Source of the DNA: Chloroflexota bacterium
GTDB taxonomy: Bacteria; Chloroflexota; Dehalococcoidia; Lucifugimonadales; GCA-002723415
Direction: 5' to 3'
NCBI GenBank assembly: GCA_002721445.1
Contig: PBKN01000017.1
Span: 1-54,884, forward strand
Length of the DNA: 54,884 nucleotides
Both the position numbers and the translations under genes were made by a program. Shown piece by piece: positions 864 to 34,418 of this stretch (within the stretch, counting starts at the first letter, position 1; each line of letters opens with the position of its first letter). A model generated the notes under the pieces. The model made no database searches. It was not told the origin of the DNA and worked only from the letters and a program-made list of their open reading frames with translations.

Positions 864-1481
864 ATGAATGAAATAGATAATATAAATACAGTACCTGATG
901 CTATATTAAAATTAATACAAGAGTTTTCAAAACTGCCTGGAATTGGAAAGAAAACTGCACAAAGGTTAACTTATCATTTAGTAAGAACAAATTTAGAAGA
1001 TGCTTTATCATTATCAGAATCTATAATGACAGTAAAAAATAATATCATTCTTTGTAGTGAGTGTTCTAATATTACTCAAATTGATCCTTGTAATATTTGT
1101 AATAATCCAATAAGAGATAAAACTAGAATTTGTATAGTAGAAGAAGCTTTAGATGTTTTAGCTCTTGAACGTACGGGTATTTTTAATGGTTTATATCATG
1201 TATTACATGGTGTGATTTCACCAGTAAATGGTGTAGGTCCTGATGATATCAATATTAAAAAACTTATAGAAAGAATTGATTCAGGTAACTTTTCTGAAAT
1301 CATATTGGCAATGAATCCTAATCTTGAAGGTGAAGCAACCTCTATGTATATAAATCAACTTTTAACTGGTAAAAATATAGATATTACACGTCCTGCTAGA
1401 GGTATACCTATTGGAAGTGATATAGAATACGCAGATGAAGTCACTTTAGGGCAAGCAATCACAGGTAGACAAAAGTTTTAG
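864..1481 (+). CDS. recR: Recombination mediator protein RecR
   Basis: The 205-residue length is typical of RecR, which forms a ring that with RecO (and RecF) loads RecA on SSB-coated gapped DNA. In order, it shows an N-terminal helix-hairpin-helix (FSKLPGIGKKTAQRLTYHL), a four-cysteine zinc finger (CSEC...CNIC), and a Toprim domain (ICIVEEALDVLALE, then LAMNPNLEGEATSMYI). It ends with the conserved ARGIPIGSDIEYADEVTLGQ segment. It lies 21 bases after ybaB and 20 bases before recO, so a dnaX-ybaB-recR-recO transcription unit is likely. Confidence 0.97.
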   Translation: MNEIDNINTVPDAILKLIQEFSKLPGIGKKTAQRLTYHLVRTNLEDALSLSESIMTVKNNIILCSECSNITQIDPCNICNNPIRDKTRICIVEEALDVLALERTGIFNGLYHVLHGVISPVNGVGPDDINIKKLIERIDSGNFSEIILAMNPNLEGEATSMYINQLLTGKNIDITRPARGIPIGSDIEYADEVTLGQAITGRQKF

Positions 1482-1501
1482 TTATTTGTATTTTATTAGA
1501 T

Positions 1502-2272
1502 ATGAGTAAAATACGTACAAGAATATATAAAACTGACGGAATAATTTTAAAACAAATACCTTTTTTAGAAAAAGATAGGATTATTACAATTTATTCTCAA
1601 GAATATGGCAAATTGAGATTGATTGCAAAAGGTATAAGAAGTCCAAAAAGTAAATTTGGTGGTTCATTAGAAACTTTAAATTCTGTTTCTTTATCTATAA
1701 TCAAACGAAATAGTATAGATTTAATTACAGAGTCATATACTAATGTGACCTATTTAAATATTAGAAATAATTTAAAATTATTATCAAAATCAATGTACTG
1801 GATTGAATTGATAGATTCTTTAACTGTTGAAAATGAACCTGTAAAAAATATGTTTCCATTAACTGAATTTACTTTAAATTTAATTAATGAAAATAATTGT
1901 AATGATTTATGTCTAAGGTATTTAGAACTTAAACTTATTATTATATCTGGCTATTCTCCTGAATTTTTTGAATGTACTTATTGTAGGAATAAATTGGAAC
2001 CTACAGATCATTTTTTTTCTTTTAATGACGGTGGTATATTTTGTGGTAAATGTAAAATAAACAGTAATACAACATTACTTAAAATTTCACTTAATTGCAT
2101 GAAAATAATTAGACTTTTATATAGAGAAAAAGATATTAATAATATACAAAAAATTAACCTAGAAAAAAATATCTTGCTTGAAATAGAAAATTTTTTACTG
2201 AGTTATTTAAAATATATACTTGAAAAAGATATAAAAAGTTATAAATTTATTAAAACAATATCTGAAATATAA
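1502..2272 (+). CDS. recO: DNA repair protein RecO
   Basis: The 256-residue protein begins with the RecO oligonucleotide-binding fold (TDGIILKQIPFLEKDRIITI, then YGKLRLIAKGIRSPKSKFGG). An all-helical domain follows, with a zinc-binding region (CTYC about residues 158-161 and CGKC about 180-183). RecO anneals complementary strands and partners with RecR. Direct adjacency to recR fits that partnership. The C-terminal third is divergent and Asn/Lys/Ile-rich, as expected from the base composition. Confidence 0.93.
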   Translation: MSKIRTRIYKTDGIILKQIPFLEKDRIITIYSQEYGKLRLIAKGIRSPKSKFGGSLETLNSVSLSIIKRNSIDLITESYTNVTYLNIRNNLKLLSKSMYWIELIDSLTVENEPVKNMFPLTEFTLNLINENNCNDLCLRYLELKLIIISGYSPEFFECTYCRNKLEPTDHFFSFNDGGIFCGKCKINSNTTLLKISLNCMKIIRLLYREKDINNIQKINLEKNILLEIENFLLSYLKYILEKDIKSYKFIKTISEI

Positions 2273-16346: not shown

Positions 16347-17474
16347 ATGAATAATATTAAATATGATCTAATTATTAATGCTGGTAAAGTATTTTGTTCA
16401 AAAAATAATATTGATGAACCTGGTTCTATTGCTATAAAAAATGGAAAGATTATAAAGTTTAATAAAAAAATTTCAAATCAAGCAACTAAAATTCTGGATT
16501 TTCCAAATGGAACATTACTTCCTGGCTTTATAGATTTACATACACATCCAGGACCAATTAATTGGAAATATGGTATGAATGCAGATAAATATATATTGTC
16601 TAGAGGTACAACTTCAATAATGTCACAAGGTGATGCAGGGGCAAATAATTGGGATAAATATAAAAACGATATAATTAAACCTTCAAAAATTGATATATAT
16701 ATGGCATTAAGTCCAGCTATTAATGGTGAAGAATTTCAACAACCTGTATTTAAAAATCTAGATGATATTAATAAAGATTTAGCAATAAAAACTATAAATA
16801 AAGAGAATGAACTGATATGGGGTTTATCAGTTAATGTTGCTGAACCATGTACATATACACATAAACCTGATTTTATTATGAATAAAGTTCTTGATATTGC
16901 TGAATATATTAGTAAACCAATATTGTATGGTGTTCGTTGGGAGCCTTTTGATTGGCATATTAAAGATCAATTAAATTTACTTAGAAAAGGTGATTTAGTA
17001 ACTTACTGTTTTCATATAGGACCAGGAGGGATAGCTCCTAAAGGTAGAGTGGAAGATAGCGTTTGGAAAGCTAAAGAATTAGGAGTGAAATTTGATATTG
17101 GTCATGGAATGGGATCTTTTAATTTTAATGTTGCAGAAACAGCAATATCAGAAGGATTTTTACCAGATTCAATATCTACAGATTATTATAGAAGACATAT
17201 AAATTCAGATCCAGTACATGATGTCCCTCATGTAATTTCTAAGTTAATTGCATCTGGTATGAACTATCAAGATGCTTTTGAAAGAGCTACATTATCACCT
17301 GCGAAGATTCTGGGTTTAGAAGATGAAATTGGTACTTTATCAATTGGTTCATCAGCTGATTTAGTAGTTATTCAAGAAAATAATAATATTGAATTAGTAG
17401 ATGTTAATGGTAATAAAAGAGAAGGTAAATTATTGGAGCCAGTTTTAACAATAAAAAAAGGAGAAATAATCTAA
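16347..17474 (+). CDS. Amidohydrolase-superfamily protein (Atu3266/EF_0837-like) with a degenerate metal site
   Basis: The 375-residue TIM-barrel protein has an N-terminal beta-sandwich half (NAGKVFCSKNN), then LPGFIDLHTHPGP with the first HxH ligand pair intact. Later come KFDIGHGMGSFNFNVAE and DSISTDYY, typical of the amidohydrolase/deacetylase subgroup, and the C-terminal SIGSSADLVVI. By eye alignment, the expected carboxylated Lys on strand 4 falls in GLSVNVAE. The His of strand 5 falls in ILYGVRWEP, and the His of the TH motif reads TY in DLVTYCF. Three usual ligands thus appear replaced, so activity is uncertain. No clear ribosome binding site. Confidence 0.82.
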   Translation: MNNIKYDLIINAGKVFCSKNNIDEPGSIAIKNGKIIKFNKKISNQATKILDFPNGTLLPGFIDLHTHPGPINWKYGMNADKYILSRGTTSIMSQGDAGANNWDKYKNDIIKPSKIDIYMALSPAINGEEFQQPVFKNLDDINKDLAIKTINKENELIWGLSVNVAEPCTYTHKPDFIMNKVLDIAEYISKPILYGVRWEPFDWHIKDQLNLLRKGDLVTYCFHIGPGGIAPKGRVEDSVWKAKELGVKFDIGHGMGSFNFNVAETAISEGFLPDSISTDYYRRHINSDPVHDVPHVISKLIASGMNYQDAFERATLSPAKILGLEDEIGTLSIGSSADLVVIQENNNIELVDVNGNKREGKLLEPVLTIKKGEII

Positions 17475-17540: not shown

Positions 17541-18221
17541 ATGAAAATATATAAATTTAATTTAATTAACTTACTATTGATTTTAATTTTTATATTATCA
17601 TGTAGTAATGATTCGACAACTATAGATGATTCAATTTCTAAAGAAACATTAGCTATATCTGTTACCTCAAATAATGTTTCACCTACACCAGAAGAAACAT
17701 CTAATATAGGACCTACAGGTAAAACTGAAACTGAATTGCGTGCTCAGGGTGATATAAAGACTTTGCGGACTGAAGAATCTGATGAATTAGCCCCTGAAAT
17801 TGAACATAATCCAAATTTTCAAGACTGTGCTGGTTTAAGAACTGCACAAAGTGGAGGTGGGCGAGGCGATGTACGTGGTCATACATTATGTACTGAAGAA
17901 AATTTAAGAGTATTGGTTCAGGATTATATAGATGCTCTAAATAAAAGCGATTTTGACTTAGTGAATAAATATATTGATGAAAATAGTTTAGCTGAACATT
18001 CCCCAATATTTGAAGATAAAAGCAATAAAATTAGTAGTGATAGTTTAAATTTAACCTGGGAAGAAGAAGAACCACCTGCAAAGAGAGGGTCTAAAAGTGC
18101 TTCAGTATTTATTAATGTAACTGCAGAAAATTTTTCTGAAAGATGGTTAGTAGACTTTATAGAGGTAGGGAAAAAGGGTGGAGGAATTTGGTATATAAGT
18201 TCTGTATCATATGATAAATAA
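17541..18221 (+). CDS. Lipoprotein of unknown function, paralogue 1 of 3
   Basis: The 226-residue precursor has a signal peptide and lipobox ending LILIFILSC (Cys21), so it is probably anchored to the outside of the membrane. After a Ser/Thr-rich spacer comes TGKTETELRAQGD, then NFQDCAGLR, a Gly-rich loop (GGGRGD) and a second Cys. A globular part follows (LRVLVQDYIDALNKSDFDLV ... LTWEEEEPP ... ERWLVDFIEVGKKGGGIWYI). The last part has the rhythm of NTF2/SnoaL-like domains, a weak inference. The two genes immediately downstream are paralogues. A GAAAGG site precedes ATG 17541. Confidence 0.8.
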   Translation: MKIYKFNLINLLLILIFILSCSNDSTTIDDSISKETLAISVTSNNVSPTPEETSNIGPTGKTETELRAQGDIKTLRTEESDELAPEIEHNPNFQDCAGLRTAQSGGGRGDVRGHTLCTEENLRVLVQDYIDALNKSDFDLVNKYIDENSLAEHSPIFEDKSNKISSDSLNLTWEEEEPPAKRGSKSASVFINVTAENFSERWLVDFIEVGKKGGGIWYISSVSYDK

Positions 18222-18269
18222 ATATTAATTATAAAAAAACAATTATTATATATAGATTGGATGTTAATT

Positions 18270-18932
18270 ATGAAAAAATTTATATCAAATATTATTGTCT
18301 TCTTTTCTTTATTAATTTTATTAATTTCGTGTAGTAATGACTCAACTACTACTGATTATTCTGCTCAAGTTGATCAAGAATTTAGAAATACTGCTCCGTC
18401 AGCTACAGTAGCTGCTGTTGTAACTGTAGCTCCAACTGGAAAAACTGAAACAGAACAGAGGAAACAAGGAGATGTACAAAGTATTCAAACTGAAGGTTTA
18501 GCTCCAGAAATTGCATACAACTCTAAATTTCAAGATTGTGTAGGAGTTCGTACAGGGAGCGGTGGAGATGGTAGTAGTAATATACGTGCATTTACTATAT
18601 GTCGTGCACAAAATTTAAGAGTATTGGTTCAAGATTACATTGATGCTTTAAACAATTCAGATATTAATTTAGTTAATAATTATATTGAAGAAAAATATTT
18701 AATAGAACATACTTCAATATTTGAACAAAAAAGCAAAACTGTAAAAGATAATGGTTTAAATTTAACTTGGATTGAAGAAGATCAACCTGGCATGAGAGGT
18801 TCAAAAAAAGCATCAATGTTTATAAACGTTACAGATGGAGATTTTTCTGAAAGATGGTTGGTAGAGTTTTTAGAAATAGGAAAAAGAGGTGATGGTATTT
18901 GGTCAATAAGTTTAATTGCATATGATAAGTAA
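18270..18932 (+). CDS. Lipoprotein of unknown function, paralogue 2 of 3
   Basis: Starting at ATG 18270 (an upstream in-frame ATG lies at 18261), the signal peptide ends LLILLISC with Cys21, the same position as in paralogue 1. It shares TGKTETEQRKQGD, LAPEIAYN, the Cys-x18-20-Cys segment around GSGGDGSSN, LRVLVQDYIDALNNSD, LNLTWIEEDQP, GSKKASMFINVT and ERWLVEFLEIGKRGDGIW. Between the two proteins the C-terminal two thirds are plainly homologous, while the Ser/Thr spacer varies. It probably arose by tandem duplication and is likely co-transcribed with its neighbours. Function unknown. Confidence 0.8.
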   Translation: MKKFISNIIVFFSLLILLISCSNDSTTTDYSAQVDQEFRNTAPSATVAAVVTVAPTGKTETEQRKQGDVQSIQTEGLAPEIAYNSKFQDCVGVRTGSGGDGSSNIRAFTICRAQNLRVLVQDYIDALNNSDINLVNNYIEEKYLIEHTSIFEQKSKTVKDNGLNLTWIEEDQPGMRGSKKASMFINVTDGDFSERWLVEFLEIGKRGDGIWSISLIAYDK

Positions 18933-18958
18933 ATTAATATAGGTATTGTGAAATAATT

Positions 18959-19603
18959 ATGAAAAAATGTATATATATAACTCACATAGTTTTTTTCTTA
19001 ATTTTAATGTCATGTTCTAACAATAATGATTCAAACAATATAATTACCCAAACTATTTCTGTGGATTCTGAAGCTTCTGCTGAAGATTCAGCAACTGAAC
19101 AAAATAAAGAATTGATTGAAAAAGCAAAAGATACTGAAAATGTTCAGATATATTTACAAGAATACGAATCAGAAGAACTTAATCATCATCCTGGTTTTAA
19201 AGAATGTTCAAAATCTAGAAGTAAAGTAGGAGGAAGAGGAGGTGGGAATACATTTGATTATAACTTATGTATTTATGACAACATGAGAACTTTAGTTAAT
19301 ACATTTTTTGAATCTATTAATACTTCTAATTTAGATAATATTTTAAAAGTCGTAGATGAAGATTCAAAATCAACAGTCACTAAATTATTAGAAGATAAAA
19401 TTAATAAGTTTTCAACTAATAATAGTAAATTAACTTGGATGGAAGAAAGCGAACCTCGAAAAACTGGATCTAGAAACATGTCAATGTATATTAATATATC
19501 TCAAGATGAAAATAGTATAGATAGATGGTTAATAAGTTTTACTGAATTAGGTAAAAAAGGTAGCGGGTTATGGGTAATTAAATCTGTTCAAGAAAATCAG
19601 TAA
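18959..19603 (+). CDS. Lipoprotein of unknown function, paralogue 3 of 3
   Basis: The 214-residue precursor has lipobox LILMSC with Cys19. It is the most divergent of the three. It keeps the two cysteines flanking a Gly-rich loop (FKECSKSRSKVGGRGGGN ... LC), MRTLVNTFFESINTSNLDNI, KLTWMEESEPR, GSRNMSMYINIS and DRWLISFTELGKKGSGLWVI. The TGKTETE segment of the other two is absent and replaced by an acidic stretch. It begins 27 bases after paralogue 2. Function unknown; the shared core suggests one ligand-binding or scaffold domain used three times at the cell surface. Confidence 0.8.
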   Translation: MKKCIYITHIVFFLILMSCSNNNDSNNIITQTISVDSEASAEDSATEQNKELIEKAKDTENVQIYLQEYESEELNHHPGFKECSKSRSKVGGRGGGNTFDYNLCIYDNMRTLVNTFFESINTSNLDNILKVVDEDSKSTVTKLLEDKINKFSTNNSKLTWMEESEPRKTGSRNMSMYINISQDENSIDRWLISFTELGKKGSGLWVIKSVQENQ

Positions 19604-19642: not shown

Positions 19643-20602
19643 ATGATAAAACTTGCAGGTACATGGAATAAACTTCTTACAAACCCTATATTTGACCATA
19701 GTGAAGATGATTTATGGGATAAATATCCCTCAGCTCCACATATTTTACGTGTGGGGAATAAATTTAGAATGTATTATTATGGTGAAAGATTCGGTCCACG
19801 AGGTAAAGAAAGACGTATAGGTTTTGCAGAAGCACCATTAAATGATCCAACTAACTGGACAAAATCAATAACTAACCCTATTCTAGATTTATCTGAGCCA
19901 GGTAGTTTAGATTCTGTATGGTGTTCATATCCATGGGTTTTACCAATTACTGATTCACTCTGGTATATGTATTACACTGGATTTGGCGATCAATGGGTTA
20001 AAGACGACTTCAAATTAAATCATACTATGCTAGCAATCAGCCATGATGCTGGAATAACCTGGAAAAGAAGTGGTCTTGGATCACTATTACCTGTTGGAAC
20101 GCCTGGATCACCTCATGAACATGGTAGTGGTTCATGTTCAGTTTTAAAAATTGGAAATGAATATTGGATGTGGTATACCGCTTTAAGAACTGATAAAGAA
20201 TATCCAACAAGAAAAAACCTGAACATAGGAATTGCTTTGGCTACTTCAAAAGATGGATTAAAATTCATACCACATGAAGCAGGAATCGTAATAAAACCAG
20301 ATTTTAACAATCCAATTGAAGATTACATATGTTCTAAACCTGTAGTATATTTTGATAAAGGAATATATAAAATGTGGTATAACTCTGCAGGATCTGGATA
20401 CAGAGTTCGTTATGCTGAAAGTGAAGATGGAATAAATTTCAACATAGACCCTGATATAGTTATTGAAGCTTCCAATCAAGGCTGGGATTCAAATATGACA
20501 GAATATGTTTGTACAATAAGCCAAGAAGATAAAGAACTACTTTTCTACTGTGGAAATAATTTCTCTGGAATTGGGATTGCAGAAAAACTAAATGAAACAT
20601 AA
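19643..20602 (+). CDS. Five-bladed beta-propeller glycosidase-like protein
   Basis: The 319-residue protein resembles the GH43/GH32/GH130 propeller superfamily. Blade motifs recur: NPIFDHSEDDLWDKYPSAPH, FRMYYYGERFG, GFAEAPLNDPTNWTKS, WYMYYTGFGDQW, YWMWYTALRT, YKMWYNSAGSGYRVRYAES and LLFYCGNNFSGIGIAE. No signal peptide is visible, so it is likely intracellular. It is distinct from, but of the same fold class as, the 507-residue protein at 11084. The YhcH/YiaL-like sugar protein follows directly, which suggests a small saccharide-processing unit. The catalytic residues cannot be assigned safely by eye. Confidence 0.75.
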   Translation: MIKLAGTWNKLLTNPIFDHSEDDLWDKYPSAPHILRVGNKFRMYYYGERFGPRGKERRIGFAEAPLNDPTNWTKSITNPILDLSEPGSLDSVWCSYPWVLPITDSLWYMYYTGFGDQWVKDDFKLNHTMLAISHDAGITWKRSGLGSLLPVGTPGSPHEHGSGSCSVLKIGNEYWMWYTALRTDKEYPTRKNLNIGIALATSKDGLKFIPHEAGIVIKPDFNNPIEDYICSKPVVYFDKGIYKMWYNSAGSGYRVRYAESEDGINFNIDPDIVIEASNQGWDSNMTEYVCTISQEDKELLFYCGNNFSGIGIAEKLNET

Positions 20603-20665: not shown

Positions 20666-21253
20666 ATGCAAGTTGGATTAATTAAACAGTTTGAGAGATA
20701 CTGCCAGAATAGAGATATACCTGAAATTTACAGGATATTAACTGACTCTAAATTATCGAAATTGACTCATCCTGATTTAGATTCAAAAGGTATGGCCAAG
20801 CTAGAAGTATTTGGAGCCCGGGGTATATCTGTCGTTCTTCAGAGTACCAGCACTGGCCTTTCCAAGGATGGATTCTTTGAAGCTCACAGAGAATTTGTTG
20901 ATGTGCATGTACCATTGATTGGAGTAGAGTCTATCGGGTATACCCCATTGGACGGGAGAGTTAAAAAAGGAGGACCTGTGCCTATATATAACCTCTCTAA
21001 AAGTGATGATGTTACATACGCTCCTTTTGAATCGGAAAGTGAAATGACAGTCATTCGGCTTACGGAAGGGATGTATGCTTTGTTCGACCCGGACGATGTT
21101 CACATGCCTCGCTTACAAACTCAAGGTCCGTCGTCTTTGGTGAAAATGGTTATAAAAATACCCGTTGGATTCATACCTGCTCCTAACCAACAACTAATAG
21201 ATATATTATCACTAGAGGGAAGTGTGTTAGAAAAGCTTATTAATTTAGGTTAA
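20666..21253 (+). CDS. YhcH/YjgK/YiaL family (DUF386) cupin-like protein, probably acquired
   Basis: The 195-residue protein carries the family signature FEAHREFVDVHVPLIGVESI (about 71-90) and the late motif ALFDPDDVHMPRLQ (139-152), which supply metal ligands in this cupin-like fold. Relatives (EbgC, YiaL, NanQ) act on sugar anomers or sialic acid, or are beta-galactosidase-associated. It is longer than the usual 150 residues because of an N-terminal helix extension. By hand count, 202 of 480 bases at 20701-21180 are G or C (42%), clearly above its neighbours, with codons such as CGG, CCG and GAC. Its GGAGGG ribosome site is also unusually strong, so horizontal acquisition is likely. Confidence 0.88.
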   Translation: MQVGLIKQFERYCQNRDIPEIYRILTDSKLSKLTHPDLDSKGMAKLEVFGARGISVVLQSTSTGLSKDGFFEAHREFVDVHVPLIGVESIGYTPLDGRVKKGGPVPIYNLSKSDDVTYAPFESESEMTVIRLTEGMYALFDPDDVHMPRLQTQGPSSLVKMVIKIPVGFIPAPNQQLIDILSLEGSVLEKLINLG

Positions 21254-31449: not shown

Positions 31450-33918
31450 ATGTTCAAAATCTTTAAAAATATTTTTATTATAAGTTTAACATTTATTTTA
31501 TTAATTCTAATATCATGTACAGATGATAATGATTCAGATATAGATTTTGGATTAGTACCTACTATAGAATCAGTAATTACTAAAAGAGAAAATAATATAG
31601 AAGCAACAATAGAAGCTAGAGCTAAATTGCTTTCAGATGCTACAGCATACGCTAAATTATTATCATTACCTCCAACTCCTATCCCTACAGTTATACCTAC
31701 ATCAACACCATTTCCTACGCCTACAGTTACTCCAACACCTATACCAACAGTAGCTCCTACTACTATTCCTACAGCTATACCTACTCCAATAAAAATTAAT
31801 AATCCTGAAAATAATCAACCATCGTATAGTGATATAGCAAAAACATTGAGACCTTCAGTTGTTAAAATTGAAGGAAAAGAATCAGTAGGAACTGGTTTTT
31901 TAATTTCACAAAATGGATTAATTGTTACTAATGCACATGTTGTAGGTGATGAATTAGAATTATTGGTTACTCTATTCGATACGAATAAAAGAAAAGCTAT
32001 AGTATTAGGTAAAGATATTAATGAAGATATAGCATTATTGGCTATCGAAGGATATAAACTAAAACCAATTAGTTTTGGGAATCTTGAAAGACCCGCAGTA
32101 GGTGAGGAAGTATTAGCTATGGGATATGCATTAGATTTGCCTGGAAATGCTACTTTTACTAAAGGTATGGTTTCCGCATATAGGCCTAATCTTTTTGGCA
32201 ATTTAACTGCATTGCAAACTGATACAGCTATCAATCCAGGTAATAGTGGAGGTCCTTTAGTAGACCTTTATGGAAATGTTATAGGAATAAATACTGCTGT
32301 AGCTAAATCAGCAGAAGGAATAAATTTTGCAATTTCTATGGATGAAGCTATTAATTCTATTAATAGACTTAAAAATGGTAATGCTAAAAATAGTAAAGAA
32401 TTTGTTAATAGTAAATATCCATATCAAATAAATTTGTTAGATAATTGGAATGCATATGAAATAAGACCTGATTTTGTAATGCTATATGATGAAGAATCAA
32501 GTACTAGAATTTATATTTTAGTTCAGAAAATTGACTCCAATACAACAACAAAACAATATGCTGATAAAAGAATATCAATATCATCAAATCAAAATTTTGA
32601 GAACTATGAAAGAATATCAATATCAGAGGTTAAACTCGATGATCTTGACGCATGGGAAATCACTGAGATATGGAAAAGACCTGAGAATGATTTTACTCAT
32701 AAAGGAGTAGAATATTTCTTAACGAATTCAGGTTTAGGTTATTCAATATATACAGAGGCTGAAATATCATCCTGGCATGATTCTAAGAATAAAGTTAATA
32801 ATATATTAAAAACTTTTACTATAGATAAATCTGTAGTAAATACTGAAAGAATATCAGATGTCACAGCAACTCCTGAACCATTATTTGTAAATTCTAATTA
32901 TAATTTTGGACCTAAAGATATAATTGTAGAACATGATACAAAGGATGGTTTTATACCTTTTAAAGCAACTAATACAAATTTTTTAAACAGTGTAATTGAG
33001 TCAACAATTATTCCTCCTCACTATGATAAAAACAGAAAATGGAGTTCAGGATTTTTAATTAGACGTAAAAATAGTTCTCAATTACATTCCATAGGAATAA
33101 CAAGTGATGGGTATTGGTTCCATTATGCTAGAAATAAAAATTTAAATCCAGAAGATATAATAGCAACTGAATACACATCAGCTATTAAAATAGGATCAGA
33201 TGATAAAAATATATTACGCATAATATATATAGATGATAAAGGATGGTTATTTATTAACGAAGAATATATTACAAAATTAGATTTATCTTTATGGACAGGT
33301 TATGGAGATATTCAACCTATTGGTTCCTGGTTTACAGGAGATGAATACGATGGGGAACAAACTAAATTTAATAATTTAAATATTAAGTCCTTAGAATCAG
33401 CATACAAAAAAGAAAATGGGATAATAGAAGAATTGGGTAATGGTATGATAGATACATTTAATAGTGATGTATCTGTTACTGATTCTATAATCAATGCAAC
33501 TTTTTATTTTAATGATTTAAATATTACACAATGGAGTCCTGGAATATTTATAAGAAATAACCAAGTATCTGGAACTCACTGTATTGTGATTTCTGGTAAT
33601 GGTAACTGGAGTCATTTCATATGGACTCCAGCGACTTCATGGGAATTAATTAAATCTGATTACTCTGAAAAAATCAATATATTTGATAGTAATAAAAATA
33701 CTGTTCAAATTATGGTATTTGGTAAATCAGCTTGGTTATTTATTAATGGAGATTATATTGATAAATTAGATTTTAGTGATTTGACTGATGAAGGAAGAAT
33801 TCAAATTTTTAATAACTTTTTCTCTGAGGATGAAAATTTTAATAGTATAACTAATTTCAAAGATTTTCATATATTATCAGTTGGTGTAGATCCTAATTCT
33901 GTTAATATTAAAAAATGA
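31450..33918 (+). CDS. HtrA-like trypsin-fold serine protease lipoprotein with Thr-Pro linker and duplicated C-terminal domain
   Basis: The 822-residue protein has a signal peptide with lipobox LILISC (Cys23). A Pro/Thr repeat linker (about 74-114) follows, then a DegP-type protease domain with His163 (VTNAHVVG), Asp193 (NEDIALLAIEG) and Ser266 (INPGNSGGPLVD). No PDZ domain follows. After a middle region there are two homologous beta-rich domains (about 480-650 and 655-815). They share WSSGFLIRR / WSPGIFIRN, GYWFHY / GNWSHF and GWLFINEEYITKLDLS / AWLFINGDYIDKLDFS. These look like jelly-roll binding domains. It probably acts on the outer face of the membrane. Confidence 0.88.
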   Translation: MFKIFKNIFIISLTFILLILISCTDDNDSDIDFGLVPTIESVITKRENNIEATIEARAKLLSDATAYAKLLSLPPTPIPTVIPTSTPFPTPTVTPTPIPTVAPTTIPTAIPTPIKINNPENNQPSYSDIAKTLRPSVVKIEGKESVGTGFLISQNGLIVTNAHVVGDELELLVTLFDTNKRKAIVLGKDINEDIALLAIEGYKLKPISFGNLERPAVGEEVLAMGYALDLPGNATFTKGMVSAYRPNLFGNLTALQTDTAINPGNSGGPLVDLYGNVIGINTAVAKSAEGINFAISMDEAINSINRLKNGNAKNSKEFVNSKYPYQINLLDNWNAYEIRPDFVMLYDEESSTRIYILVQKIDSNTTTKQYADKRISISSNQNFENYERISISEVKLDDLDAWEITEIWKRPENDFTHKGVEYFLTNSGLGYSIYTEAEISSWHDSKNKVNNILKTFTIDKSVVNTERISDVTATPEPLFVNSNYNFGPKDIIVEHDTKDGFIPFKATNTNFLNSVIESTIIPPHYDKNRKWSSGFLIRRKNSSQLHSIGITSDGYWFHYARNKNLNPEDIIATEYTSAIKIGSDDKNILRIIYIDDKGWLFINEEYITKLDLSLWTGYGDIQPIGSWFTGDEYDGEQTKFNNLNIKSLESAYKKENGIIEELGNGMIDTFNSDVSVTDSIINATFYFNDLNITQWSPGIFIRNNQVSGTHCIVISGNGNWSHFIWTPATSWELIKSDYSEKINIFDSNKNTVQIMVFGKSAWLFINGDYIDKLDFSDLTDEGRIQIFNNFFSEDENFNSITNFKDFHILSVGVDPNSVNIKK

Positions 33919-33926
33919 AGGTAAGT

Positions 33927-34418
33927 ATGAAGTATTACATAATAATTATTACATTAATTATTTCTTTATTTATTATAGCTTGTAGTGGTAATTCTATTGA
34001 TTTAGAATCATCTGAATTGATTCAATTAAAAGATAATACCGGGGAAAAGCTCTTTAGATATAATAATTCTGGATGTAAAGGATATTATTGTGCATCTATT
34101 TCATTAGACTGGGAAGGGCAAATAAGTGATTTAGATTTACTCAAATTTGGTCAATGGTTATATAAAAATAGTGAAACAAAAATAAATGAAAATGAAAATA
34201 TAACTGGTAAAAAATATAGAATTAAAATATTCCACCCACCTGATTTTCAAAATTGCACTTGGGAAAATTCAAATGAATGCAATCAATATCTGATTGCTTT
34301 TTATTACAGAGATTTAAACATTCATAATCAAGGAGTGGTAAAACTTTATAATTATAATGGTGATACAAAAGAATATTCACAACCTATATTAGATTCTGAT
34401 ATTGAAAAATCTAAATAA
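33927..34418 (+). CDS. Small lipoprotein of unknown function
   Basis: Starting at ATG 33927 (GAAGG just upstream; the in-frame ATG 33915 overlaps the previous stop), this protein of about 163 residues has lipobox SLFIIAC (Cys19). The mature part has four cysteines in two pairs (GCKGYYC and NCTWENSNEC), suited to disulfides, and a motif YRIKIFHPPDF. I do not recognise a family. It follows the HtrA-like lipoprotein directly and may be a partner or inhibitor; that is only suggested by adjacency. Confidence 0.7.
   Translation: MKYYIIIITLIISLFIIACSGNSIDLESSELIQLKDNTGEKLFRYNNSGCKGYYCASISLDWEGQISDLDLLKFGQWLYKNSETKINENENITGKKYRIKIFHPPDFQNCTWENSNECNQYLIAFYYRDLNIHNQGVVKLYNYNGDTKEYSQPILDSDIEKSK

Follow-up and report, generated by a model that had tools for sequence, protein, structure and literature searches.

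Among described NTF2-like proteins, the enzymatic ones tend to be intracellular and the extracellular ones non-enzymatic, and a non-catalytic, ligand-binding function has been argued for the extracellular lipid-anchored domains (PMC3924330). The families DUF4878, DUF3887 and DUF3828 resemble the proteins studied here in having a lipid-anchored or secreted NTF2-like domain, and DUF4878 also shares with them a conserved Trp near the C-terminus (PMC3924330). The NTF2-like domain of Bd1075 targets this protein within the envelope (PMC8938487), and the same paper cites binding of peptidoglycan fragments by the NTF2 domain of Pgp2. From SAR202 genomes, paralog expansions have been described in catabolic enzymes (PMC5395668). 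The lipoprotein gene triplet described here, together with its paralogs, is a smaller expansion, in envelope proteins. These unannotated surface proteins of an uncultured SAR202-type bacterium with a small genome could be assigned a recognisable fold and placed in an uncatalogued group of Dehalococcoidia lipoproteins. Proteins of this kind are familiar, and the Cys pair of the triplet is a small lineage-specific elaboration.

The window, by which we mean the whole stretch of 54,884 nucleotides that was analysed, comes from a genome (G000) of 1.71 Mb in 18 contigs that is 99% complete. Three lipoprotein genes follow one another on its plus strand, P1 (17541..18221, 226 aa), P2 (18261..18932, 223 aa) and P3 (18959..19603, 214 aa), and the ORF calls leave gaps of 39 nt between P1 and P2 and 26 nt between P2 and P3. 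P2 probably starts at 18270 instead of 18261, since AATTATGAAAAAAT at 18270 matches the start of P3. The signal sequences consist of a hydrophobic N-terminus ending in LSC, ISC or MSC, with a low-complexity spacer next. Through a pattern scan, we found a lipobox with the invariant Cys in all three proteins (Cys21 in P1, Cys24 in P2 and Cys19 in P3), and they are predicted to be lipidated. A promoter scan was uninformative (52 sites vs 46 expected), and a terminator scan found none.

At the protein level P1 and P2 are 54% identical, and P1 and P3 are 32-34% identical in the alignment. Searching the genome with P1 recovered P2 at E 1.6e-72 and P3 at E 1.1e-35, and by these sequence comparisons the kinship of the three is far above chance. 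The DNA of P1 and P2 contains a 300-nt direct repeat of 73% identity and a second repeat at the gene starts. A tree of the core united the triplet with support of 98/97 and, within it, paired P1 with P2 at 93/81. The tandem triplet of related lipoproteins reported in the initial annotation was thus recovered from the three plus-strand ORFs, their lipoboxes and these identities, and the topology ((P1,P2),P3) agrees with its proposal of two duplications. The sequence motifs that it listed are all present, with small differences: the helix motif is DYIDALN in P1 and P2 but FFESIN in P3, and the final motif of P2 reads GKRG, not GKKG. Common to P1, P2 and P3 are LTW(E/I/M)EE, GS(K/R)xxSxxIN and RWLxxFxExGK(K/R)GxGxW. 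The spacer, which in P1 is a fast-diverging, low-complexity Ser/Thr/Glu stalk after the lipid anchor (17604..17816, plus strand), had been described as divergent, and this is borne out by identities of 16-46% (16-20% against P3), compared with 33-65% in the core and 29-43% in the Cys-loop region. For P1 and P2, dN/dS is about 0.26 in the core and about 0.37 in the spacer, and the core value indicates purifying selection to keep the proteins; the ratios of pairs with P3 are unusable because dS is near saturation.

We modelled residues 80-226 of P1 and 55-214 of P3 with AlphaFold from a 37-sequence alignment. The P1 model had a pLDDT of 86.9 and a pTM of 0.83, and the P3 model 81.7 and 0.77. In both, a long helix 1, a short helix and a third helix are followed by strands, four in P1 and five in P3, and the predicted NTF2-like core of helices and then an antiparallel sheet corresponds to 17898..18218 in P1 and to 19277..19600 in P3, both on the plus strand. 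When the models were compared with the PDB by Foldseek, the listed matches with a probability of at least 0.9 were nearly all NTF2-like for both proteins. Those of P1 included the RsgI9 NTF2 domain, Bd1075, the N-terminal domain of PBP2a and ketosteroid isomerases, and those of P3 included VirB8-like proteins, Bd1075, ketosteroid isomerases and SnoaL-like proteins. The best E values were 6.5e-4 for P1 (RsgI9 NTF2 domain) and 1.7e-3 for P3, and TM-scores normalised by query length were 0.36-0.53. Because these scores are modest, the superfamily is well supported, while the closest relative and the exact subfamily are not. In a profile search against the PDB, most top matches were ketosteroid isomerases, polyketide cyclases or similar proteins, at sub-threshold scores. 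The models thus give good support, at the level of the fold, to the earlier guess that P1 and P3 have an NTF2-like core. P2 (core at 18609..18929, plus strand) nearly certainly has the same predicted fold, because it is 54% identical to P1. A role in type IV secretion was considered on account of the VirB8-like matches and rejected; they are matches at the fold level only, and no T4SS gene was present among the neighbours examined.

In agreement with the initial annotation, which knew of no named family with this combination of features, none of the three proteins scored above a Pfam or NCBIfam cut-off. The most plausible match was Pfam TcaA_5th (PF22819), an NTF2-like domain that matched the P1 core weakly over helix 1 (E 0.0011, 19.7 bits vs a gathering cut-off of 23.6 bits); P2 and P3, however, were unmatched, and the other domains of TcaA are absent here. 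P1-P3 had no match to DUF4878 (PF12870), DUF3887 or DUF3828 at E <= 1, and none to Lumazine_bd_2 (PF12893) at the Pfam cut-off; a distant relative, L060, passes this latter NTF2-like family with 30.5 bits. PADLOC gave no match. Matches to SPACA9, DUF3531, Biliv-reduc_cat, PHROGs and NCBIfam lipoproteins were set aside as sub-threshold or as covering mostly signal peptide and linker. Literature searches brought up nothing relevant on SAR202 lipoprotein paralogs or on NTF2-like lipoproteins with disulfides.

Four further paralogs were found in the same genome, and the Cys pair is absent from all of them. Three are lipoproteins: contig 2 carries two of them (L014 7339-7959 and 9384-10043) and contig 16 the third (L015 6586-7227, minus strand). 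The fourth is a distant, apparently membrane-anchored paralog on contig 5 (L039). Like the triplet, the three lipoproteins have a Gly-rich segment before the core and the GS..LGM and FKE..K motifs, but they are only 18-22% identical to P1. They are 75-77% identical to one another, their core is under strong purifying selection, and they group together in the core tree (100/99). All seven members in the genome were grouped weakly (75/93), with long-branch warnings. In the ORF translations, the contig 2 paralogs have peptide ABC transporter ATPases as neighbours (L014 5096-10043), and the contig 16 paralog lies beside a lipoprotein resembling peptide-binding proteins (L015 4649-7227). Between the two paralogs on contig 2 there is also an unrelated plus-strand lipoprotein with four non-lipid Cys (L014 8005-8451).

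A profile of the core detected similar proteins in 15 others of 250 genomes of the order, some of the matches being short or weak, and a larger core profile detected them in 16 others among 294 genomes that sample the class. When named genomes were scanned, the matches were SAR202 cluster bacterium bin16, SAR202 Io17-Chloro-G4, further Chloroflexota MAGs and two MAGs with the title Deltaproteobacteria; one of these two appears to be the same as G488, a genome placed in this class, so that its title is probably wrong. Sampling across the phylum added one weak match. An hhalign comparison of the triplet core with 11 outside Dehalococcoidia lipoprotein cores gave a probability of 97.7% and an E of 1.8e-12, values that are somewhat favourable because the outside sequences had been recruited with profiles containing the triplet. 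The triplet shares the layout that characterises this NTF2-like lipoprotein group, a low-complexity stalk and then a homologous core of about 105 residues. The core consensus of the group is LRxLAFxYWEAxNAYDxEKxLxFLEExYR...SPP...GEWKIxFAEE, as for example in L071 (SAR202 cluster bacterium bin16) and L074 (Io17-Chloro-G4), and a lipobox is present where the N-terminus could be read. Unlike the triplet, these lipoproteins are mostly single copies without the Cys pair or the Gly-rich loop before helix 1, and they are about 12-26% identical to P1. None of the core members tested scored above the cut-off of a Pfam family. Orthologs bearing the Cys pair were found neither in 38 other genomes of the same order, nor in the 392 further genomes of the class sample, nor in the genome-contig collection, viral contigs, phages and plasmids. 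Matches in G031 and C8 were rejected as orthologs because they comprised only signal peptide and low-complexity linker, and one in G015 because only profile positions 7-51 were covered. These results indicate that the isolation of the triplet implied by the initial annotation does not hold, as four more members in the genome and the wider Dehalococcoidia group share the core.

The two Cys that had been noticed about 20 residues apart around a Gly-rich loop are present in each protein and always exactly 21 residues apart: Cys96 and Cys117 in P1 (17826..17891), Cys93 and Cys114 in P2 (18537..18602), and Cys83 and Cys104 in P3 (19205..19270), all on the plus strand. They are the only two Cys of each protein outside the lipobox, apart from Cys4 in the signal peptide of P3, and the ORFs of the window have a Cys content of about 1%. 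The Gly-rich stretch between them is poorly conserved. The P1 and P3 models both place the second Cys at residue seven of helix 1 and the first ahead of a short helical turn, and pLDDT drops to near 62 in part of the loop. In the three Cys-less lipoproteins, both Cys are replaced together, by Ala. One lipoprotein group has both Cys and the other neither, a pattern that favours a disulfide but amounts to a single comparison. On the core tree, the pair would either have arisen once, ahead of the triplet, or have disappeared from the other lipoprotein group. Other lipoproteins seen from the genome mostly have even numbers of Cys, 0, 2 or 4, with one exception. The joint presence and absence, the exact spacing, the presumed extracytoplasmic location and the mostly even Cys counts make it fairly likely that the paired Cys form a disulfide. 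Family searches found neither VKOR nor Thioredoxin_4 in the genome, and its single DSBA-family match has no obvious signal sequence and an in-frame TGA where the active-site Cys would be, so that a disulfide would have to form by other means. A dedicated catalyst is not indispensable for disulfide formation. That the searches found no VKOR or Thioredoxin_4 oxidase would also suit a pair that is redox-active or binds a metal or cofactor instead of forming a structural disulfide. We consider this unlikely, as a gap of 20 residues does not resemble the CxxC motifs of redox or metal sites, the pair is accompanied by neither a conserved His nor an additional Cys, and the mostly even Cys numbers in the other lipoproteins of the genome also speak against it.

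The best explanation, which we hold to be reasonably probable, is that P1-P3 are tandem duplicates that act as stalked, lipid-anchored, non-enzymatic ligand-binding or envelope-adaptor proteins of NTF2-like fold. The three genes would descend from one lipoprotein gene by tandem duplication, and their products would be exported and lipid-anchored, presumably on the extracytoplasmic side. Some 60-75 residues of disordered stalk would keep the NTF2-like domain away from the membrane, and the Cys-(20 residues)-Cys element just before and inside helix 1 would probably form a disulfide that pins the Gly-rich loop beside the domain. As a guess from the superfamily, the domain may bind a small ligand or a wall or envelope component non-catalytically, or serve as an envelope adaptor, and the copies would have diverged in loop and stalk. 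By analogy with the extracellular NTF2-like proteins described above, P1-P3 may be binding or adaptor domains in the envelope. If the domains do bind ligands, they would be candidates for cell-surface sensing or capture. A more elaborate version, in which lineage-specific SAR202 lipoproteins gained a disulfide-pinned cap loop over a ligand cup and were diversified in tandem for different ligands, forming an array of receptors for organic matter of the deep ocean or for wall fragments, seems to us rather improbable.

The neighbouring genes were the basis of the earlier suggestion that the triplet captures substrates for nearby hydrolase and saccharide genes. The triplet adjoins an amidohydrolase gene (16347-17474) and is followed by genes for a GH130-like propeller protein (19643-20602, plus strand, a sub-threshold assignment) and a YhcH/DUF386 protein (20666-21253), and the shared strand and short gaps would fit such a link. 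However, short gaps are common in the window, and the paralogs are located at other places in the genome, where their neighbours include peptide ABC transporter genes. Nor is the NTF2-like fold known to serve sugar capture of this kind. The suggestion was therefore left unsupported, and we regard it as quite unlikely. That P1-P3 are instead exported enzymes of the isomerase, cyclase or epoxide-hydrolase type at the surface is quite unlikely as well, for although ketosteroid isomerase and SnoaL-like structures are among the fold matches, identity to these matches is 6-20% in the fold alignments and extracellular NTF2-like proteins tend to be non-enzymatic (PMC3924330).

Several other loci were seen in the course of this work. 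A search of 246 other genomes of the order with the propeller protein at 19643-20602 yielded no homolog at E <= 1e-20, and the protein is possibly a lineage-specific acquisition. At 31450-34418 on the plus strand, an 822-aa lipoprotein with a trypsin-like protease domain is followed by a 167-aa lipoprotein that has four Cys and no Pfam match. Elsewhere in the genome, a DSBA-family ORF (L080, about 1358-1989, minus strand; G000:C9 near 76485-76961) reads MDKFIIYYDYS-TGA-PFVYNATVWLQEV, with the in-frame TGA at the position of the catalytic Cys. A hairpin, GCAAC-AGTTTG-GTTGC, lies within about 20 nt after it, and the same genome has a tRNA-Sec gene (L082, 60 bits, ARAGORN anticodon tca), and on its sequence this ORF is a candidate selenoprotein gene.
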